A DNA stretch of 64,000 nucleotides from Methanocorpusculum labreanum Z (GTDB taxonomy: Archaea; Halobacteriota; Methanomicrobia; Methanomicrobiales; Methanocorpusculaceae), in NCBI RefSeq assembly GCF_000015765.1, contig NC_008942.1, positions 387,921 through 451,920 on the forward strand, in the 5' to 3' direction. Within the stretch, counting starts at the first letter, position 1. Each line of letters begins with the position of its first letter. The translations under genes were made by a program, and so were the position numbers. Of this stretch, positions 29,986 through 41,567 are shown piece by piece. The notes below the pieces were generated by a model, which did not search any database, was not told the DNA's origin, and worked only from the letters and a program-made list of their open reading frames with translations.

Positions 29986-30227
29986 CAAGTAGCTCACTTG
30001 CAAGTCCCATCCAAAAACTTAACTCAGCCGAGTTTTCTCTTCCAATAAATACGGTCTACCTCGCAAATCAATGATTTGGTCGCACGTCTATCGGTTTGCT
30101 CTGCTGAGGTCGAGCCTGACGGCTGACGCCGCCCGGTCGCAAATCAAAGATTTGCTCAACTGAGGGACCTAAAGGTCCCCGCCGCCCGCTCGCAAGTCTG
30201 ACGACTTGGTCGCAAATCAAAGATTTG
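29986..30227. repeat. Array of six mini-palindromes in a gene-free stretch
   Basis: Small hairpins: CAAGT-AGCTC-ACTTG (29986-30000), CAAATC-AAT-GATTTG (30064-30078), CAAATC-AAA-GATTTG (30140-30154 and an identical copy at 30213-30227), GGGACC-TAAA-GGTCCC (30164-30179), CAAGTC-TGAC-GACTTG (30193-30208). Four share TCGC just before the left arm and GGTCGC or GCTC after the right arm. The stretch 29788-30304 holds no gene; outside the hairpins only AT-rich sequence after tRNA-Phe was seen. Confidence 0.75.
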
Positions 30228-30304
30228 CTCAGCTAAGGCCGCCTCTAAAGGGACGGCCCGCTCAATCATCTATTTGTCCCATCACCGCCAAACCTATATC
30301 ACCA

Positions 30305-31165
30305 ATGCCCATTGATGCAGACATCATAAAATCTCTCCATAAATACGAAATACGCATCCTTCACGCCCTCGAGCGGATGATGAAACGATACCGCTGGGTC
30401 CCCGAAGACGACCTCCGTGCCGCCGTCAAACTCTCCCCTCCCGAACTCAAATATCGTCTCGGCAACCTCATCCACCGTGACCTCGTCCGATCCGACTCCG
30501 TCCCCTACAAAGGCTACGCCCTCGTCTTTGCCGGCTACGACGCCCTCGCTTTATCCGACCTCGCCGGCAAAAAGACCATCTCCGCCCTTGGCTGCATGGT
30601 CGGCGTCGGCAAAGAATCCGAGATCTACGAAGCGCTTGGTTTCGGCATCGTCATCCTCAAACTCCACAAAGTCGGCCAGAGATCCTTCCAGACTCTCAAA
30701 ACCAACCGCGAATACATGCCCGGAGAAGGACACTGCCCCTGGATATTCGCCTCCGCAAAATCCGCCGAACGGGAATACGAAGCGCTCAAAGCCTTAAACG
30801 GCAAAGTCAGCGTCCCGGTCCCGATCGACATCAACCGGCACGTCATCGTCATGTCCCAGGTCCCGGGCGCCAACCTCATCCGCTGCGTCCTCGAAGACCC
30901 CGACACCATCTACCGGCAGATCCTCGACGAAGTTCAAAAAGCCTACGCCGCAGGATTCATCCACGGAGACCTCTCCGAATACAACATCATGACCGACGGG
31001 GAAACCGTCTGGCTCATCGACTGGCCCCAGTGGATCCCGCCCACCCATCAGAACGCCGACGCCGTCCTCCGGCACGACCTTGAAAACGTCATCACCTACT
31101 TCGCAAAGAAATACCAGACAAACTACGACCTCGAAGAGGCGGTCGCTTTCGTAACAAAGCCATGA
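30305..31165 (+). CDS. rio2: RIO2-type atypical protein kinase
   Basis: 286 residues from the ATG at 30305. The N-terminal winged helix (to about 85: LHKYEIRILHALERMMKRYRW) marks RIO2. The kinase domain shows the P-loop MVGVGKESEIYEA, the lysine region ILKLHKVG, catalytic FIHGDLSEYNI and metal-binding WLIDWPQW. Rio2 acts in late 40S/30S subunit maturation. An upstream in-frame start at 30206 lies in the palindromic repeats and was rejected. The coding strand is unusually rich in C in third positions. Overlaps the DUF460 gene (ATGA). Confidence 0.93.
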   Translation: MPIDADIIKSLHKYEIRILHALERMMKRYRWVPEDDLRAAVKLSPPELKYRLGNLIHRDLVRSDSVPYKGYALVFAGYDALALSDLAGKKTISALGCMVGVGKESEIYEALGFGIVILKLHKVGQRSFQTLKTNREYMPGEGHCPWIFASAKSAEREYEALKALNGKVSVPVPIDINRHVIVMSQVPGANLIRCVLEDPDTIYRQILDEVQKAYAAGFIHGDLSEYNIMTDGETVWLIDWPQWIPPTHQNADAVLRHDLENVITYFAKKYQTNYDLEEAVAFVTKP

Positions 31166-33465
31166 ATCTCGTATTCGGCATCGACAAGATCACGGGTTCC
31201 GCTCATTCCTCGCCGGGCGGCCTCTACTCCCTCGTCCGGGTAGTCGACAAAAGGATCGAGTCCGAAGAACGCAGCATCACCCTCCAGCATCTCCTCCATC
31301 TCATCAATGCCGAGAAGCCGGAGATCGTCGCCTTTGCCTCGCTCCGGGAGATCGCCCCCGACACACGCTCCCTTTTTACCCTGACAGAAGCCCTGCCCTT
31401 TGGCACGAAGCTCGTTCTCATCGCCTGCATCGGGGCAAAATCCGCCCCTCTCCCGAAACTCGCCGAGCGATACAACCTCCGCTTCGACGCCTCCAACCCT
31501 ATGGAACAGGCCAAGATCTCGGGTCTCATCGCCTCGTTTGGAGGCGGATACGAGATCAGGACCTTCGAAGGGGTCACGACCATCACCGTGTCGAGAGCCC
31601 GCCCGCCGATCCGCACGCACCAGAACCGGTACATCCGGCACATGCAGGGGTCTCTGATGTCGATCTCCCGCGAGATCGAGGCCGGCCTCCTTGCAAACGG
31701 TCTCATGTTTTCCTCGTCGATCTCCCGGTCGTTTCGGGGCGAGCGGATCGTGGAATTCAGCGTCACCGCTCCCCGTCACGAGGTCCCCGCGTCCTCGAAG
31801 ACATCGGCCGGAGTTTCCGTCCGGGTCGCCGGCACGAGAAAGGAGGCTCCCGATTTCCTCCCTATCTCAAAGCGGCCGCCCTACTTGATCGTCGGCATCG
31901 ACCCGGGCACTACCGTCGGGATCGCCGCCCTCAATCTCGACGGCGACCTGGTCCATCTCTCCAGCACCCGGGCTCTTGGTCAGGCCGAGATCATCGCGGC
32001 AATCACTGCGGTCGGAAGACCTGTTTTGATCGCGACCGACAAGGCCGAGATGCCGTTCGGGGTGGAAAAAGTCAGACGGGCCTTCTCCGCCGTGGCCTGG
32101 ACTCCGGCGAAGGATGTGCTGATCAAAGAGAAGTATGATCTTGCCGAAGGCTACGACTTCGGGAACGATCACGAACGCGACTCTCTCTCGGCCGCGGTAA
32201 TGGCTTACCGGAGTTATGCGAACAAGTTCGAGTCGGTCCAGAAACGCATGCCCCCGGGAACCGACATCGACATGGTCAGGGCTGGGATCATCCGCGGCCT
32301 CTCCCTCGAGCAGATCCTCGAAACCCTGAAGCATCCGGAAATTCTGCCCGAAGAGCCGGAGGTCATTGTGGAAGAGTTCGTCCCCGACGAAAAGGACGAA
32401 CGCATCGCCCGGCTCGAAGAGACCGTCGCGAAACTTCGTAAACTCGCTGGAAGTTTATCCGAAGAAGTCGAGGTGAAGGACAAGGCGATCGCAGCCCTGC
32501 AGAAACGGCTTGTTTTCGAACGGGAAGAGAGGAACGCGGAGATGCTCTCAACTGAAGCGATCACCTCCCGCGACACGGAACTCGCCCAGGTGAAAAAGGC
32601 TCTCAGGAAAGAAGAGCGCCGCAGTAAGACGCTTCGGACCAGACTCGAGCGGATGAAGCATTACATCTCTCTGCAGGCAGGCGACGGCTGCACGGCGCTG
32701 AAAGTCCTCCTGCTGCTTGCGAAGGATCATGTGAAGACGCTGGACGACGAGATGGGGGTCGGCGAGGAGGATATCCTGTATGTCCTCACGATCGACGGCT
32801 GGGGTAAGACGGTGATCCGCGATCTTGCGGAGGCGAAGATCGGGGCGGTGATCCTGCCGCGGCTGACGTATCAGCGGGCAAAAAGCCAGCATCTTATCGA
32901 GGAGTTTAGAGAAGCGGACATCCCGATCCTGGACGGAGCGAACCTTTCACCCCGCGTAAAAGGAAAGATCGGCGTGGTGGACTCGGCCGCGTTCGAGGCG
33001 GCCCTTGCCGACTGGAAGACGACGCAGGATGTCTACAAGAACGAGAAGAAGATCGGTGAGATTCACGGGATGGTGAAGGAGTATCAGGTTGAGCGGGTCA
33101 AAGATGTCCTGGAGAAAGGGATCGACCCGACGCTGGTGTTCGAGGTGGACCGGGCAAAACCCGAGACGCCGGCGTCACCTCCGGTTCCTGAAAAACCGGC
33201 CACGGTTTTCAGACCAAAACCCGCTGCCCCGCCTGTGGAAAAACCTGCTCCGGCAGAAAAACCCGTGGTAAAGCCCGCAGCAAAACCCGTAGCGAAGCCG
33301 GTTCCAAAGCCGGCTCCGGCCCCGGTGCCAAAACCGGCGCCGAAAAAGGAAACCCCGAAAAAACCCGCATCCTCCAAGAAGCCTGAGAACGGATCCGCGG
33401 AGAAGATCCTCTTTGGCGTCCTCTCCGAGTACCGCGAAGAACGCAAAAAGGAGCTGAAAAAATAA
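31162..33465 (+). CDS. DUF460 / COG2433 protein with RNase H-like domain and coiled coil
   Basis: 767 residues. Residues about 240-370 form an RNase H/RuvC-like fold: LIVGIDPGTTVGIAALNLDG and later DFGNDHERDSLSAAVMAYRS carry the acidic ligands. A coiled coil follows (about 410-510), then a DUF460 C-terminal region, then a Pro/Lys/Ala-rich low-complexity tail (about 670-745, repeated KPxxKP) and a charged end. The family is archaeal and predicted to be a nuclease, but I know of no demonstrated function. Operon rio2-DUF460-thiL with overlaps on both sides suggests an RNA or ribosome role (inference). Confidence 0.9.
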   Translation: MNLVFGIDKITGSAHSSPGGLYSLVRVVDKRIESEERSITLQHLLHLINAEKPEIVAFASLREIAPDTRSLFTLTEALPFGTKLVLIACIGAKSAPLPKLAERYNLRFDASNPMEQAKISGLIASFGGGYEIRTFEGVTTITVSRARPPIRTHQNRYIRHMQGSLMSISREIEAGLLANGLMFSSSISRSFRGERIVEFSVTAPRHEVPASSKTSAGVSVRVAGTRKEAPDFLPISKRPPYLIVGIDPGTTVGIAALNLDGDLVHLSSTRALGQAEIIAAITAVGRPVLIATDKAEMPFGVEKVRRAFSAVAWTPAKDVLIKEKYDLAEGYDFGNDHERDSLSAAVMAYRSYANKFESVQKRMPPGTDIDMVRAGIIRGLSLEQILETLKHPEILPEEPEVIVEEFVPDEKDERIARLEETVAKLRKLAGSLSEEVEVKDKAIAALQKRLVFEREERNAEMLSTEAITSRDTELAQVKKALRKEERRSKTLRTRLERMKHYISLQAGDGCTALKVLLLLAKDHVKTLDDEMGVGEEDILYVLTIDGWGKTVIRDLAEAKIGAVILPRLTYQRAKSQHLIEEFREADIPILDGANLSPRVKGKIGVVDSAAFEAALADWKTTQDVYKNEKKIGEIHGMVKEYQVERVKDVLEKGIDPTLVFEVDRAKPETPASPPVPEKPATVFRPKPAAPPVEKPAPAEKPVVKPAAKPVAKPVPKPAPAPVPKPAPKKETPKKPASSKKPENGSAEKILFGVLSEYREERKKELKK

Positions 33466-34325
33466 TGGACGACCGTTCCCTTCTTGACTCGATCCGTCAT
33501 CTGATCGGCGAAGACGAGACGGCGGACGACTGCGCCGCCTTCGACCTCTTGGACGGCAGGATCCTCGTCTCCAGCACCGACATGCTGCACGAGACGACCG
33601 ACTTCCCGAAAGGCATGACCGAATTCGAAAAAGGCTGGATGAGCGCCGCCGTCACGCTTTCGGATATCGCGAGCTGCGGGGCAAAACCCGTCCAGCTCCT
33701 TGTTGCCGTCGGTCTGGACGATCCATCCCGGCTTGTTCCCTTTATGGAAGGCGCCGTTTCCTGCGCAAAAACCTTCGGCGCGAAGGTTTCCGGCGGGGAT
33801 ATCGACAGTCATATCGAACTCACCGTTGTGACAACGGGTTTTGGGATCGTGGAAAAAACGCACTACTGCCGGCGGTCCGGTGCCCGTGCCGGCGATCTCG
33901 TCTGTATCACGGGAACACCGGGGCTTGCCATGGCGGCACTCGAAGGCGATGAACGCTACCGGAAAAATCTGCTCACCCCGATCCCGCAGGTAAAAGCCGG
34001 GCAGAAAATCGCCGCCGCCGGCGCGTCCTCGATGATGGACGTCTCAGATGGTCTTTCGATCTCTCTTTTTGATATGTCGGAGGCGTCCAACGTCGGATTC
34101 GCGCTCGAATCGGCAAAATTCAATCTCCCGGACGTCCGGGCAGGGTCCGCACGGGAGTATTATCTCTACGGCGGCGGGGACTTTGGTCTCCTTTTCTGCA
34201 TATCGCGGGAGCGTTTACCGGCCCTCGATGCGGAGTACACCGTTATCGGTAAGGTCGTCGGGGAAAAAGGGGTCTGGTGCGACGGGGAGCCTGTCGAAAA
34301 GCGGGGCTATGCTCACTCCTGGTGA
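33465..34325 (+). CDS. thiL: Thiamine-monophosphate kinase
   Basis: 286 residues. Makes thiamine diphosphate from the monophosphate. It is in the PurM/ThiL fold: the N-terminal metal-binding ADDCAAFDL, VSSTDMLHETTDFP, SGGDIDSHIELTVVTTG near 110 and MMDVSDGLSISLFDM near 190. Start overlaps the DUF460 stop (TAATG). Somewhat shorter than the bacterial ThiL of about 320 residues, as is common in archaea. Its end overlaps the convergent UPF0146 gene by 13 bases. Confidence 0.92.
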   Translation: MDDRSLLDSIRHLIGEDETADDCAAFDLLDGRILVSSTDMLHETTDFPKGMTEFEKGWMSAAVTLSDIASCGAKPVQLLVAVGLDDPSRLVPFMEGAVSCAKTFGAKVSGGDIDSHIELTVVTTGFGIVEKTHYCRRSGARAGDLVCITGTPGLAMAALEGDERYRKNLLTPIPQVKAGQKIAAAGASSMMDVSDGLSISLFDMSEASNVGFALESAKFNLPDVRAGSAREYYLYGGGDFGLLFCISRERLPALDAEYTVIGKVVGEKGVWCDGEPVEKRGYAHSW

Positions 34326-34714
34326 GCCTTCACATATCGGTGCAGCATAACGCCGTCCGTCACGATCCGTTCTCCGCCGTTTTCGTACAGCTCGAAGCCA
34401 AGATGATAGACGATCAGGTCGGCGTTTATGCGAGTCGCAAGCTCGATCAGCGCAGGAACGATCTCCGTCCCCGGACGGATCGCGTAGATCACGCCCGCCG
34501 CCTGATAAAGTGAGATCGTCGGCTCGACACAGTCGTCAACAACCGAGGGAACCGGGCCTTCGGCGTATGCGTGCACGTCCGTGCAGAGCACCGGGATGCC
34601 TGCATTCTGCACGATCTCTGCGGCCGTCGTTTTCCCGCCAAAGCCCACCTCTACTGCCGAGCGGTAATTCGCCGCGATATACCGACCGACCGCCGTCTCG
34701 ATGCCGTTTCTCAT
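34313..34714 (-). CDS. UPF0146 family protein
   Basis: 133 residues from the ATG at 34714. The N-terminal AVEVGFGGKTTAAEIVQNAG resembles a SAM-binding Rossmann loop, and VLCTDVHAYAEGPVPSVVDD and GVIYAIRPGTEIVPALIEL follow the archaeal UPF0146 pattern. Function unknown; the fold suggests a reduced methyltransferase-like protein. The frame is open further upstream, but that part is antisense to archaemetzincin and was rejected. Divergent from amzA across 46 bases. Confidence 0.85.
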   Translation of the reverse strand: MRNGIETAVGRYIAANYRSAVEVGFGGKTTAAEIVQNAGIPVLCTDVHAYAEGPVPSVVDDCVEPTISLYQAAGVIYAIRPGTEIVPALIELATRINADLIVYHLGFELYENGGERIVTDGVMLHRYVKAHQE

Positions 34715-34760
34715 AGAATAAGGTACATTTATCGCTTTGCACAAAGAAATACCTATACAA

Positions 34761-35369
34761 ATGGGGATACATCTTTTTTGGGACAGCCGCGTTCCTGTCG
34801 GCCTGTCGCGTCCGGTTTCCGAGGAGCTGTCCGCGGTTCTCGAGATGCCCGTCTCGAGGATAGACGACGGCATTTTTCCGCTCGAGGGCTTCGACCCGGT
34901 CCGAAACCAGTATGATGCCGTGAAGGTTCTTTTAAAACTGGACATGTTCCGGAGAAGAATGCCCCAGATCTTCAAGCCGGCCGATATGGACCTGGAATTC
35001 TACAATAAATTCAATCATCTGCACGAAAAGATCCTTCTCGTGACGCCGGGCGATCTCTACGAACCTCTCGCGGACTTTGTGTTCGGTCTTGCCTACCCGA
35101 AACTCGGGGTGGCGATCGTTTCGCCGCACCGGCTCCAAAACGAGTTCTACGGCAAATATGCCGACGACTCGGCGCTGATTGATCGGATCGTAAAAGAAGG
35201 AGCTCACGAGATCGGGCACCTGTTCGGGCTTGGTCACTGCGATAATCCAGGATGCATCATGTATTGTCCGCGGAATCTGGACGAACTGGACCGGAAGCGG
35301 AAGTACTTCTGCGGAAAATGCCGGGTCCAGCTGAACGGCGACACGCTGGAGGATGATCTGTTCTCATGA
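34761..35369 (+). CDS. amzA: Archaemetzincin (zinc metalloprotease)
   Basis: 202 residues from the ATG at 34761; a TTG at 34737 could add 8 residues. The extended metzincin zinc site HEIGHLFGLGHC (149-160) is followed by the archaemetzincin cysteines CIMYC (165-169) and CGKC (184-187) that bind a second zinc. Archaeal AmzA is a predicted peptidase with unknown substrate. A TATA-like CATTTATC lies about 30 bases upstream. Its stop overlaps the start of the cas1-like gene (ATGA), which is an unusual pairing. Confidence 0.92.
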   Translation: MGIHLFWDSRVPVGLSRPVSEELSAVLEMPVSRIDDGIFPLEGFDPVRNQYDAVKVLLKLDMFRRRMPQIFKPADMDLEFYNKFNHLHEKILLVTPGDLYEPLADFVFGLAYPKLGVAIVSPHRLQNEFYGKYADDSALIDRIVKEGAHEIGHLFGLGHCDNPGCIMYCPRNLDELDRKRKYFCGKCRVQLNGDTLEDDLFS

Positions 35370-36298
35370 TCCCCTGGGTCACCGTCTGGGGATACGGCGC
35401 CGAGATCAAATCGACCCGCGACTCGCTGATCGTGCGGCAGAAAGGCAGTACGACCCAGTATCCTCTGGATGATATGCGGCATCTTTTGATCGCCGGCGGC
35501 CACTCTCTGCACACCTCGGTCCTGGAACGCCTCGCGGACCGCGGGATCGCCGTCTCCTTTTTCACGGCGCACGGAAAACCCGTCGGCGGGATCTACGGAA
35601 AAGGCGCCCCGTCTCTTGCGTCTCAGCAGCGGGATATCCCAATCCATAAATTCGCGATGGCCTCGATTAGGTCTTCGCTGGATGAACGTCTGCGGTACAT
35701 CAACGAGCTTGCCGAGTTCGATCCCGAAGGTCTCTACTTCAAAGGGGAGTTTGACATCCTCACCGCAGCACGTGAGGAACTGGAGTATCTGATCACCCTT
35801 CCGGAAATCGGCCGGGCGTTTTCCCTGACGAAGACGATGTATTACGAGATCATCGGCAGGAAACTTCCCAAAGTGCTGGGCTACCGCCGGAGATGCCAGC
35901 CGCCGTTTATGGATCCGGTGAACGTGATGATGTCCCACGGGTATGCGGTTTTGTATGCGAACTTCGCTCTTGCCTGCACAGGAGCAGGCCTCGATCTCTC
36001 CCGCGGCGCCCTCTACGGGGAGATCGTCTCGGCGCCCGGCGGTCGCGGAGGGTGCGTTCTTGATCTCATGGAGCCTGCGACCGTGTCGATGGTCGACCGG
36101 GTGATTATCCAGATGGCGGCGGAAGGCCGTCTTGACGGAGCATACGAGGTCACGACCCGGTGTCTTTTATCGAACGAACTCAAAGAGGAGTTCATGAAAC
36201 GGCTGCACGGTTCGATCAACATCACGCTGATCGAAGAGAATGTAAACCGGTATGCCGAGTCCGTCAAAGACGGCCGGGACATCGTCTTCCATTACTAA
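35366..36298 (+). CDS. cas1: Solo Cas1-family protein, probably lacking the catalytic residues
   Basis: 310 residues, the normal Cas1 length. The N-terminal beta-domain (IKSTRDSLIVRQKG, HLLIAGGHSLHTSVLERLAD) and the helical C-terminal domain (DPVNVMMSHGYAVLYA, AGLDLSRGALYGEI, CVLDLMEP) align with Cas1. The conserved Glu (usually in an R-G-x-E-G motif) seems to be Phe152 and the conserved His (usually G-F-L-H after GLDP) is Tyr217; only Asp233/Glu236 of the metal site remain. There is no cas2, no other cas gene and no CRISPR array in the window. CRISPR-independent solo Cas1 groups are known in methanogens. Translationally coupled to archaemetzincin. Confidence 0.9.
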   Translation: MIPWVTVWGYGAEIKSTRDSLIVRQKGSTTQYPLDDMRHLLIAGGHSLHTSVLERLADRGIAVSFFTAHGKPVGGIYGKGAPSLASQQRDIPIHKFAMASIRSSLDERLRYINELAEFDPEGLYFKGEFDILTAAREELEYLITLPEIGRAFSLTKTMYYEIIGRKLPKVLGYRRRCQPPFMDPVNVMMSHGYAVLYANFALACTGAGLDLSRGALYGEIVSAPGGRGGCVLDLMEPATVSMVDRVIIQMAAEGRLDGAYEVTTRCLLSNELKEEFMKRLHGSINITLIEENVNRYAESVKDGRDIVFHY

Positions 36299-36323
36299 GA
36301 CGGCCGGAAAAAAAGTATTAGGA

Positions 36324-36890
36324 TTATTTTTGTTCGGTCAGGACGTCTTTGAGACTCTCTTCGAGGAAGTCCAGACCTTTTCTGACATCGTCAAGATTCT
36401 TACCGCCGGTTAAGATGATCTTTCCAGACGAGAAGAGCAGTGCAACGATTTTCGGATCTTTGATACGGTATACGAGACCCGGAAACTGCTCGGGTTCATA
36501 CTCGATGGCTTCGAGAGAGAGGGTTGCGACCACACGGTTCAGGTTGATAAACCGACCGATGTCGTAGGAACAGACTATGTTGGTCACGGCGACCCGCGGG
36601 ACATCCAGCACGTTTACGCCTGCTTCTTTCAGGGAGGCAAGCACCTTTGCGAGACCTTCTCCCAGCGACTCTTCATTTCTGATTCCGGTAAGCACGACCT
36701 TTCCCGACGAGAAGATCAGCGATGCCATTTTCGGACTGTCGATACGATACACTGCACCGGGGAAACGTTTTGTATTGAGTTCACACCCGTCAATTTTTTC
36801 GGAGATCTCTGCAAGATCAATTTCTTCGGCAATTACGCCGGAGGCGACGATATTTTCAATCTTCAGAGAGGAGTATGTTTTCCCATCCAT
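36324..36890 (-). CDS. tbp: TATA-box-binding protein (TBP), copy 1
   Basis: 188 residues from the ATG at 36890 (an in-frame ATG at 36914 would add 8). General transcription factor that binds the TATA box and recruits TFB. Two direct repeats of about 90 residues are visible: RFPGAVYRID...LIFSSGKVVLTG and QFPGLVYRIK...LLFSSGKIILTG. The DNA-intercalating Phe residues are kept in both. It differs clearly from the second TBP at 40998-41567, for example SSGK instead of GSGK. Confidence 0.96.
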   Translation of the reverse strand: MDGKTYSSLKIENIVASGVIAEEIDLAEISEKIDGCELNTKRFPGAVYRIDSPKMASLIFSSGKVVLTGIRNEESLGEGLAKVLASLKEAGVNVLDVPRVAVTNIVCSYDIGRFINLNRVVATLSLEAIEYEPEQFPGLVYRIKDPKIVALLFSSGKIILTGGKNLDDVRKGLDFLEESLKDVLTEQK

Positions 36891-37050
36891 CTTTATTAAA
36901 TGGAGCACGGACAAGCATAATACTTCGCGTTAGATGCGGGTGTGGTTTCATCTGTAAATGCGCGGCGGTTTATATAATATCATTTCAAGGTTTTGGATAT
37001 TTTCAAAGAAAAAAGATATTTGGGGTCGCGATTTTTCCCGGAAAATCCGG

Positions 37051-38097
37051 TCAATCATCCAGCCCGGGATCGTGATACGATCGCCGCTCTTCGACATGCC
37101 CGTCCACATACCGTGCGAACCGGTTTTCGCCGATGTCATGGACTGGGTCGGGGACATCCCACGGCCACCCGCCAAATTCGGTCTGCCGGAAGTCCCGATA
37201 GGCTTCCTGGATCTCTTCAGGCGTGTTCATGACAAACGGACCGTATCTGGCGATCGGTTCATTGATCGGCTCTCCTTCCAGAAGAAGGAGGGAACACCGG
37301 GCATTTCCGGCATGTATCGAGATATCCTCGCCTCCCGGGAGTACGACCCGCGAGTAGGGGCCGATCTCCTTTGTGCCGATCATGATTTTATCGCCGTCGT
37401 AGAAATAGAGATTTCGAGAGATCGTCGAAGTAACGGCCGGGATGCGAAGTTCTGCTCCCGGGGCCATTCTGATGAGGAGAACCCTGACATGATTGTCCGG
37501 GTCGGTTGCCCAGGACGCAGGCGAGGGTGCGGGGGCACGTTTCCCGTCCCATACTCCTGCAATCAGTCGGATCGTGCTTGCTTTTCCGGCGGCATCCCTG
37601 GAGGTGATGACGGGTATGTCCTCGGCCCAGAGCATCCGGTAATGCGGCTGCGCAAGTTTGTCCTTTGCCGGAAGGTTCAGCCATATCTGGAAAAGTTCGA
37701 GCGGATTTTCCCGGTCCGCATGTACGAGCGGGAACATCTCCGCGTGCTGGCAGCCGCTCCCGGCTGTCATCCACTGCACATCCCCGTTGCAATATCTGCC
37801 TGAAGAGCCGAGCGAATCGGAATGATCCACATAGCCCTGTATCGTGGCCGTGATCGTCTCAAAGCCCCGGTGCGGATGAACCGGGAAGCCCGGGACTCGC
37901 TGCCCGTGATACATGCGGAACCCGTTTTTTATGACAAAATCGTTTCCCAGGTTTCTGCCGGAAAGAGAGACGGCCGGACCGAGGTCCCGTTCTCCTTTCG
38001 GGTACATATCTTTATGATGAGCACAGAAAAGAAACGGATTGTCCGTTACGAACGGAAAGCCGAGTCTTTCAACACGGATAACTTCTTTCTCTGCCAT
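37051..38097 (-). CDS. Pirin family protein
   Basis: 348 residues, a two-domain cupin. The N-terminal cupin carries the pirin iron site in HPHRGFETITA and the downstream GDVQWMTAGSGCQHAEM; the C-terminal cupin ends near residue 290. Related bacterial proteins act as quercetinases or in redox signalling; the methanogen role is not known. Single minus-strand gene. The 848-base frame on the other strand (36958-37803) is its shadow. A TATA-like TTTATATAATAT lies at about 36972-36983 in the 36915-37050 gap. Confidence 0.92.
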   Translation of the reverse strand: MAEKEVIRVERLGFPFVTDNPFLFCAHHKDMYPKGERDLGPAVSLSGRNLGNDFVIKNGFRMYHGQRVPGFPVHPHRGFETITATIQGYVDHSDSLGSSGRYCNGDVQWMTAGSGCQHAEMFPLVHADRENPLELFQIWLNLPAKDKLAQPHYRMLWAEDIPVITSRDAAGKASTIRLIAGVWDGKRAPAPSPASWATDPDNHVRVLLIRMAPGAELRIPAVTSTISRNLYFYDGDKIMIGTKEIGPYSRVVLPGGEDISIHAGNARCSLLLLEGEPINEPIARYGPFVMNTPEEIQEAYRDFRQTEFGGWPWDVPDPVHDIGENRFARYVDGHVEERRSYHDPGLDD

Positions 38098-38278
38098 TTC
38101 GCTGTTATGTGAATAGAACTCCCCAATCCGTTATATATTTGTGGGAGACGGCAGACAAACGGCCGGTATGTGCCGTTTTTTTTCTGCAGAGGCGGAATGG
38201 GATTTTCGCGGTCTTCGGCATCGAAATACCATCTTCCCGAGGTATAATATGCGGGAACGCTCAATATTACATATCTCT

Positions 38279-38398
38279 ATGCTGGAACTACTGGTAGCCG
38301 TCATATCAGCCGCGTTTACGCTGATCATTATTCTTGATCCCCTGCTTTCGGTCTCGATGTTCATCAATCTGACCAGGGATCTCCAAAACCCGAGATGA
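38279..38398 (+). CDS. marC: MarC-family membrane protein, N-terminal part (frame-split)
   Basis: 39 residues: a hydrophobic first helix (LLVAVISAAFTLIIILDPLL) followed by SVSMFINLTRDLQNP, the normal start of MarC-family proteins. The frame then ends at a TGA (38396-38398), overlapping the ATG of the second part (38395). Together they give the usual MarC length of about 211 residues. A TATA-like GGTATAATAT lies at 38241-38250. The split could be a one-base deletion, a sequence error or a programmed -1 shift (the heptamer A-AAC-CCG lies at 38386-38392). Confidence 0.7.
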   Translation: MLELLVAVISAAFTLIIILDPLLSVSMFINLTRDLQNPR

Positions 38399-38913
38399 TC
38401 AGGCAGGCTTTCGTGGCAACGGGCGTCGCCGGCGTTCTGATGCTGACATTTCTGATATTCAATAATCTGCTGTTCGATCTTCTCGGCATTGAACTGGAGA
38501 GTTTCAAGGTCGCTGGAGGTATCATTCTCTTTATTCTTGGTCTGCAGATCGTTCTTGGTCTGGAAATCGGCGGCTCCTCGGCAGGGCACAAAAGTCTGGA
38601 GAGCTCGGACCGGATCGGGAAAAAATCCATGGCAGGCGTCATCATCGGCACGCCGGTGATGTGCGGGCCTGGAACGATCACGACAGTGATGATCCTCGGG
38701 GCTCAGGATGGTATCATTCTGACCCTCGTTGCCGTGATCCTTGCCCTGTTTTGTATCTGGCTGATTTTGATCTTCTCGGCGCAGATCAAGAAACTGCTCG
38801 GAGAAACCGTGCTTGTGATCCTCTCAAAAATCGTAGGTCTTCTGCTTACGGCGATTGCCGTACATACGATCTGGACCGGTATCCTTGGACTGATTGCCCT
38901 TTCGGTCGCCTGA
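38395..38913 (+). CDS. marC: MarC-family membrane protein, C-terminal part (frame-split)
   Basis: 172 residues with about five membrane segments. Family features include GLEIGGSS-type loops and the signature MAGVIIGTPVMCGPGTITTVMIL. Alone it lacks the first helix and would have an odd number of segments, so it probably is the rest of the 38279 gene in the -1 frame. MarC proteins are integral membrane proteins of unknown substrate; the old link to multiple antibiotic resistance was withdrawn. Confidence 0.8.
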   Translation: MIRQAFVATGVAGVLMLTFLIFNNLLFDLLGIELESFKVAGGIILFILGLQIVLGLEIGGSSAGHKSLESSDRIGKKSMAGVIIGTPVMCGPGTITTVMILGAQDGIILTLVAVILALFCIWLILIFSAQIKKLLGETVLVILSKIVGLLLTAIAVHTIWTGILGLIALSVA

Positions 38914-40997: not shown

Positions 40998-41567
40998 TTA
41001 TTCTATCTGCAGAAGTTTGAGAGAGATCAGATCATCGTAGATCTTTTTGACCGCTTTCTTTGCATCTGCCGTTTTCTTTCCGCCGGTGATGATAAGTTTT
41101 CCCGAACCAAAGAGCAGAACGACCACTTTCGGATCGTCGAGCCGGTAGACGAGTCCCGGAAACTGCTCGGGTTCATACTCGATCTTGTCCAGATTGAAGC
41201 TCATCGCGATCTTGTTGAGATTGATGCGGCTTCCAAGGTCGGCCGAGGTGACGATGTTTTGAACGGTGTAGGTCGGGTTGTCCAGAATGTTGATCTTGAG
41301 CTCTTTTAGGAGAGCTACCAGGTATTCCAGTCCTTTGGTCAGATTCTCGAGGCTTTTGGCGCCGGTAAGGACGACTTTTCCCGATCCGAAAACCAGGGCC
41401 GCAATTTTCGGATTCTGCATGCGCAGGACGACTCCGGGGAAACGCTGTTTATTATATTCCGCTCCCGGAATCTGGGCGGCGAGCGCCACAAGGTCCAGAC
41501 TGTCATTCACCTTGGTTGATGCAACAATATTCTCAATCTTCAGCGAGTCTTCGGGAAGGTTTGACAT
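40998..41567 (-). CDS. tbp: TATA-box-binding protein (TBP), copy 2
   Basis: 189 residues, canonical length. Two repeats: RFPGVVLRMQNPKIAALVF-GSGK and QFPGLVYRLDDPKVVVLLF-GSGK. Phe residues that kink DNA are present in all four places. It is roughly half-identical by eye to the TBP at 36324-36890 and lies 4.1 kb from it, so the window has two TBPs, probably an old duplication. Which is the housekeeping copy cannot be decided; copy 2 looks closer to the family consensus. Confidence 0.96.
   Translation of the reverse strand: MSNLPEDSLKIENIVASTKVNDSLDLVALAAQIPGAEYNKQRFPGVVLRMQNPKIAALVFGSGKVVLTGAKSLENLTKGLEYLVALLKELKINILDNPTYTVQNIVTSADLGSRINLNKIAMSFNLDKIEYEPEQFPGLVYRLDDPKVVVLLFGSGKLIITGGKKTADAKKAVKKIYDDLISLKLLQIE

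Follow-up and report, generated by a model that had tools for sequence, protein, structure and literature searches.

What does a Cas1-family protein do in the cell when its gene stands apart from any CRISPR locus and part of the integrase active site has been replaced? The question is raised by the window analysed here, a 64-kb stretch corresponding to bases 387921-451920 of a single-contig genome of 1,804,962 bp whose nearest named relatives belong to Methanocorpusculum. On its plus strand, an archaemetzincin (peptidase M54) gene (34761..35369) is followed by a full-length, 310-aa Cas1-family gene (35366..36298) that begins inside the archaemetzincin stop codon through an ATGA overlap (35366..35369, plus strand), exactly as an earlier note on this DNA had read it; the overlap may couple the translation of the two genes. 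The downstream product matches Pfam Cas_Cas1 (E 1.8e-35, 122.9 bits against a cut-off of 22.3) and NCBIfam TIGR00287 (90.1 against a cut-off of 71.7), and because the latter cut-off is exceeded the gene attracts the label "CRISPR endonuclease", which is misleading in this case. The upstream product scores 161.8 bits against NF033823 (cut-off 145), as expected of an M54 member, and its zinc-site motif, HEIGHLFGLGHC...C, is intact (HEIGHLFGLGHCDNPGCIM in the protein, P0002). Compared with the two closest relatives tested, dN/dS is 0.054 and 0.11 for the cas1 reading frame and 0.04 and 0.025 for the archaemetzincin frame; since they are conserved with such low ratios, both are, on sequence grounds, real genes.

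The Cas1-like gene is a member of Cas1-solo group 1, which was reportedly already described by Makarova et al. in 2013. The group has been characterised as exclusive to Methanomicrobiales, vertically inherited without horizontal transfer, unlinked to CRISPR and, with no member carrying a full active site, likely inactive (Krupovic 2014, PMC4046053), and it was later termed probably vestigial (PMC9755687). The window gene shows the same profile, namely the Cas1 fold and sequence family, placement in a single class-restricted clade, an incomplete catalytic set, and no association with cas genes or CRISPR. Both the gene and its inactivity were thus already known, and what is added here is evidence for a maintained, altered function: universality, purifying selection, a change of charge and a flipped conserved face are new with respect to the published account. 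Specifically, a solo Cas1 profile matched 217 of 232 genomes of the class Methanomicrobia, including 133 of the 135 near-complete ones, and the solo Cas1 is a single-copy, near-universal gene of the class. In a sample of the phylum, class members scored at least 338 bits and everything outside the class at most 162, the four best-scoring outsiders being canonical Cas1 proteins with an adjacent cas2; no solo ortholog was recognised outside the class in this sample, and the clear score gap to canonical Cas1 confirms the published exclusivity. In a midpoint-rooted tree, the solo proteins form one clade (support 100/100) on a long stem (1.51). No match was found in viral contigs, and mobile or viral carriage was rejected on this ground.

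The state of the active site was read by aligning 26 solo with 36 canonical Cas1 proteins in a gap-free register, anchored on the shared columns 159, 176, 186, 233 and 244, with the shared Tyr159 holding the register around residue 152. All 36 canonical proteins have the catalytic Glu (column 152) and the catalytic His (column 217), whereas the window protein has Phe152, within the former catalytic helix (codons 145-165, 35798..35860, plus strand), and Tyr217 (36014..36016, plus strand), and keeps D233 and E236 at the other two catalytic columns; the residue assignments of the earlier note are therefore correct. Glu147, which that note had considered as a possible occupant of the metal site instead of Phe152, occurs alongside Glu152 in 10 of the 36 canonical proteins, including the genome's own. 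Neither Glu147 nor Glu161 qualifies as a replacement catalytic Glu, because a canonical protein can carry 147 and 152 together and both residues lie on the other helix face. Among 75 relatives, position 152 is occupied by His, Ser, Phe, Tyr or others, with Glu present in four and absent in 71, position 217 is His in 38, position 233 is Asp in 70 and Glu in five, and position 236 is Glu in 55 and Asp in 18. Judged from these columns, the loss of Glu152 is a family-wide change and the His-to-Tyr replacement at 217 is a lineage detail, and the retention of D233 and E/D236 makes some metal binding possible. One Cas1-solo gene from a Lac Pavin MAG of the Methanomicrobiales (L111:5998-6918) encodes all four canonical catalytic residues (Glu-His-Asp-Glu) and is a minor counterexample to the published claim that the complete set is absent throughout group 1. 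This protein falls in a small Glu152-bearing clade, in which the site was either retained or regained.

The fold is kept, while chemistry and charge have changed. An AF2 model of the window protein (pLDDT 92.1, pTM 0.92) aligns along its entire length with solved structures of Cas1 and casposase (TM 0.81-0.83), a confident match that shows the fold to be preserved. Conservation has instead moved away from the catalytic residues: columns 152 and 217 rank 164th and 147th of 310 in the solo proteins, compared with 9th and 1st of 334 in the canonical ones. Conversely, R150, E161, R165 and R265 are invariant in the solo proteins, while in canonical Cas1 position 150 is a conserved Gly and positions 161, 165 and 265 are variable (ranks 304, 267 and 258). 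R265 and C266 (codons at 36158..36163, plus strand) are family-specific residues of a predicted hairpin, and E147, R150, E161 and R165 constitute a new conserved face of the helix on which Phe replaces the catalytic Glu. Measured from residue 152 on the modelled helix 145-164, the conserved face points to +36 degrees in canonical Cas1 and to -163 degrees in the solo proteins; on this former catalytic helix it has thus turned over by about 160 degrees.

The strongest rival to a non-enzymatic protein acting through protein contacts is the proposal of the earlier note, a nuclease-dead protein that still binds DNA, such as branched DNA or replication and repair intermediates. The full Cas1 fold is consistent with it, as is the conservation of R176, D183, N186, Y193 and D244 as in canonical Cas1; moreover, K15, R108 and R174-R176 are mostly conserved in the solo proteins and could still form a small local DNA-binding basic patch. 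On the other hand, the median net charge is -5 in the solo proteins (n=78) and +6 in canonical Cas1 of the same class (n=23), with barely overlapping distributions (Mann-Whitney p 5e-13, a value that overstates independence, as the sequences are related), and the columns 16, 98, 104, 109, 178, 273 and 283, basic in most canonical Cas1 proteins, have largely lost this character. The acidic shift, together with the loss of these basic columns, argues against DNA binding and weakens the proposal, which we regard as unlikely. Alternatively, the protein may be an enzyme whose active site has moved or been altered and now consists of the new invariant residues together with D233, E236 and D244. The new set of invariant charged residues and the retention of D233 and E/D236 would fit such an enzyme, but the new residues lie on the helix face opposite to the old site, and neither a recognised catalytic motif nor a match to another enzyme family in Pfam or NCBIfam was found, which renders this alternative quite improbable.

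The solo gene is also separate from the adaptation machinery of its own genome. Cas2 was matched just once in the genome, at 838.9 kb and some 415 kb from the solo gene, next to a CRISPR array and to the canonical Cas1 gene at 837.9 kb; within the window there is neither a cas2 nor a copy of the genome's CRISPR repeat, and a search of the window for CRISPR-spaced repeats returned only one two-copy repeat, in agreement with the earlier note, which had seen no cas2 or array in the 64 kb. Compared with canonical CRISPR Cas1, such as that of Archaeoglobus fulgidus (4n06), the window protein shares the whole fold (TM 0.81), D233, E236 and structural residues, but differs in its low identity (18%), in the absence of a nearby Cas2 or CRISPR, in the loss of the catalytic Glu and His, and in being acidic rather than basic. 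The likeness to the casposases (Cas1-solo group 2) is similarly one of fold outside CRISPR (structure match 6opm, TM 0.82-0.83), whereas a casposase keeps the complete catalytic quartet and is encoded together with PolB in an inverted-repeat element, none of which applies to the window gene. No strong terminal inverted repeats flank it, only weak, chance-like inverted matches being present in 33000-38500, and no PolB was found among the neighbouring genes scanned (RIO2, DUF460, ThiL, UPF0146, TBP, pirin); within this scope the observation of the earlier note on both features stands, and a casposon remnant is ruled out. Three copies of a palindromic repeat (TCGCAAATCNNNGATTTGCTCA type), two of them identical (at 30137 and 30210), occur in the window at 30061-30238, before RIO2, and similar palindromic units adjoin the CRISPR array of L082 (14757-14866), so that they probably represent a dispersed repeat family.

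The presence of one canonical Cas1-Cas2-CRISPR locus in the genome and the common fold would suit a dominant-negative regulator that poisons canonical Cas1 or casposon integration through hetero-dimers. However, the solo gene is never located beside CRISPR loci among the neighbourhoods read, its product is very divergent from canonical Cas1, and 27 of the 79 surveyed Cas1-bearing genomes keep it with no second Cas1 detected, which indicates that it is independent of CRISPR adaptation. Such a regulator is therefore very improbable.

The archaemetzincin pairing is strictly local. Wherever a Methanocorpusculaceae locus extends far enough upstream, the archaemetzincin gene lies directly before cas1-solo (one sampled locus of the family, L027, is cut off by a contig end within cas1), mostly with a 4-nt overlap in Methanocorpusculum and with a 94-104 nt gap between co-directional genes in Methanocalculus. 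Conversely, it is adjacent to cas1-solo in 0 of 49 loci of other families, despite the presence of an archaemetzincin gene in 60 of 60 genomes tested. Thus, the conservation of the pair among relatives, on which the earlier note had made its proposal depend, holds within Methanocorpusculaceae and breaks down in the other families. Being confined to one family, the pairing cannot explain the solo Cas1 protein and is not supported as a functional clue; the protease link is ordinary lineage-specific gene order. It is highly improbable that the protein is a functional partner, substrate or chaperone of archaemetzincin, as the overlaps or near-overlaps throughout Methanocorpusculum and the co-directional order in Methanocalculus might suggest, given that other families possess both genes apart; gene order rules archaemetzincin out as a general partner. 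A literature search found no paper linking archaemetzincin and Cas1.

Outside Methanocorpusculaceae, what lies upstream varies from family to family and is mostly transcribed away from the solo gene, and the downstream position is in most loci sampled taken by a convergent acylphosphatase. The acylphosphatase was likewise discarded as a partner: Methanocorpusculum lacks it, and its gene runs on the other strand, which makes synteny more likely than partnership. Beyond it, one locus encodes a conserved protein of about 1200 aa (L066:7187-10780, minus strand) with homologues in 33 of 54 neighbourhoods; it has no Pfam or NCBIfam match, weakly resembles designed helical repeats and AP beta subunits, and may thus form a HEAT-like solenoid. 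Within the window, two TBP-like genes lie within 5 kb (36324-36914 and 40998-41567, minus strand), the first recognised by Pfam and the second from its translation only, and a DUF460 protein of 767 aa (31162-33465) is encoded between RIO2, upstream, and a ThiL-like kinase, downstream, in what looks like a series of ATGA-coupled genes.

Lastly, the vestigial status suggested in the literature for group 1 (PMC9755687) would accord with the loss of catalytic residues and is scarcely credible against dN/dS values that stay below 0.25 in all 291 informative pairs (NG86; 0.036-0.249, median 0.155, the pairs not being independent), intact reading frames and near-universal retention. The low ratios and the persistence of the gene in genomes with no other Cas1 indicate that it is not vestigial and that, far from being junk, it probably encodes a cell protein put to a new use, and the earlier picture of a solo, non-casposon Cas1 with a broken catalytic site and a housekeeping-like character is borne out.

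The reading that we favour, and consider probable, is that of an exapted, non-enzymatic Cas1-fold core protein of the class Methanomicrobia that probably acts via protein contacts. It builds on the fold, the loss of the catalytic Glu, the change of charge, purifying selection, universality and independence from both CRISPR and archaemetzincin. A Cas1, putatively of CRISPR-type origin, would have detached from CRISPR before the class diversified, giving up the metal-dependent chemistry of an integrase along with most of the basic character of its DNA contacts. The cell would have put this Cas1 fold to a new, non-enzymatic use, probably still as a dimer, as in other Cas1 proteins. Its function may now reside in the conserved N-terminal sheet domain and in a new charged site behind the old catalytic helix, made up of E147, R150, E161 and R165 together with R265. 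Such a protein would most likely act by binding a protein partner stoichiometrically, as a scaffold or a regulator. Against this exapted-protein reading stand the gene neighbours, which differ between families and so point to no partner, the possible local DNA-binding patch, the retained D233 and E/D236, and the few Glu152-bearing relatives (4/75), with the full set in L111. The more specific claim, namely that a CRISPR integrase has been domesticated as a class-wide core protein that does not bind nucleic acids and carries a new site behind the former catalytic helix, is tentative and falls slightly short of an even chance.

If true, this would be a case of Cas1 exaptation outside mobile elements and immunity, and would exemplify the capture of CRISPR-related machinery for ordinary cell biology. 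A group known since 2013 and set aside as inactive or vestigial now emerges as a conserved core gene that is kept under selection and whose product has a new site that can be defined, and what a Cas1 that neither cuts nor joins DNA is capable of becomes directly testable.
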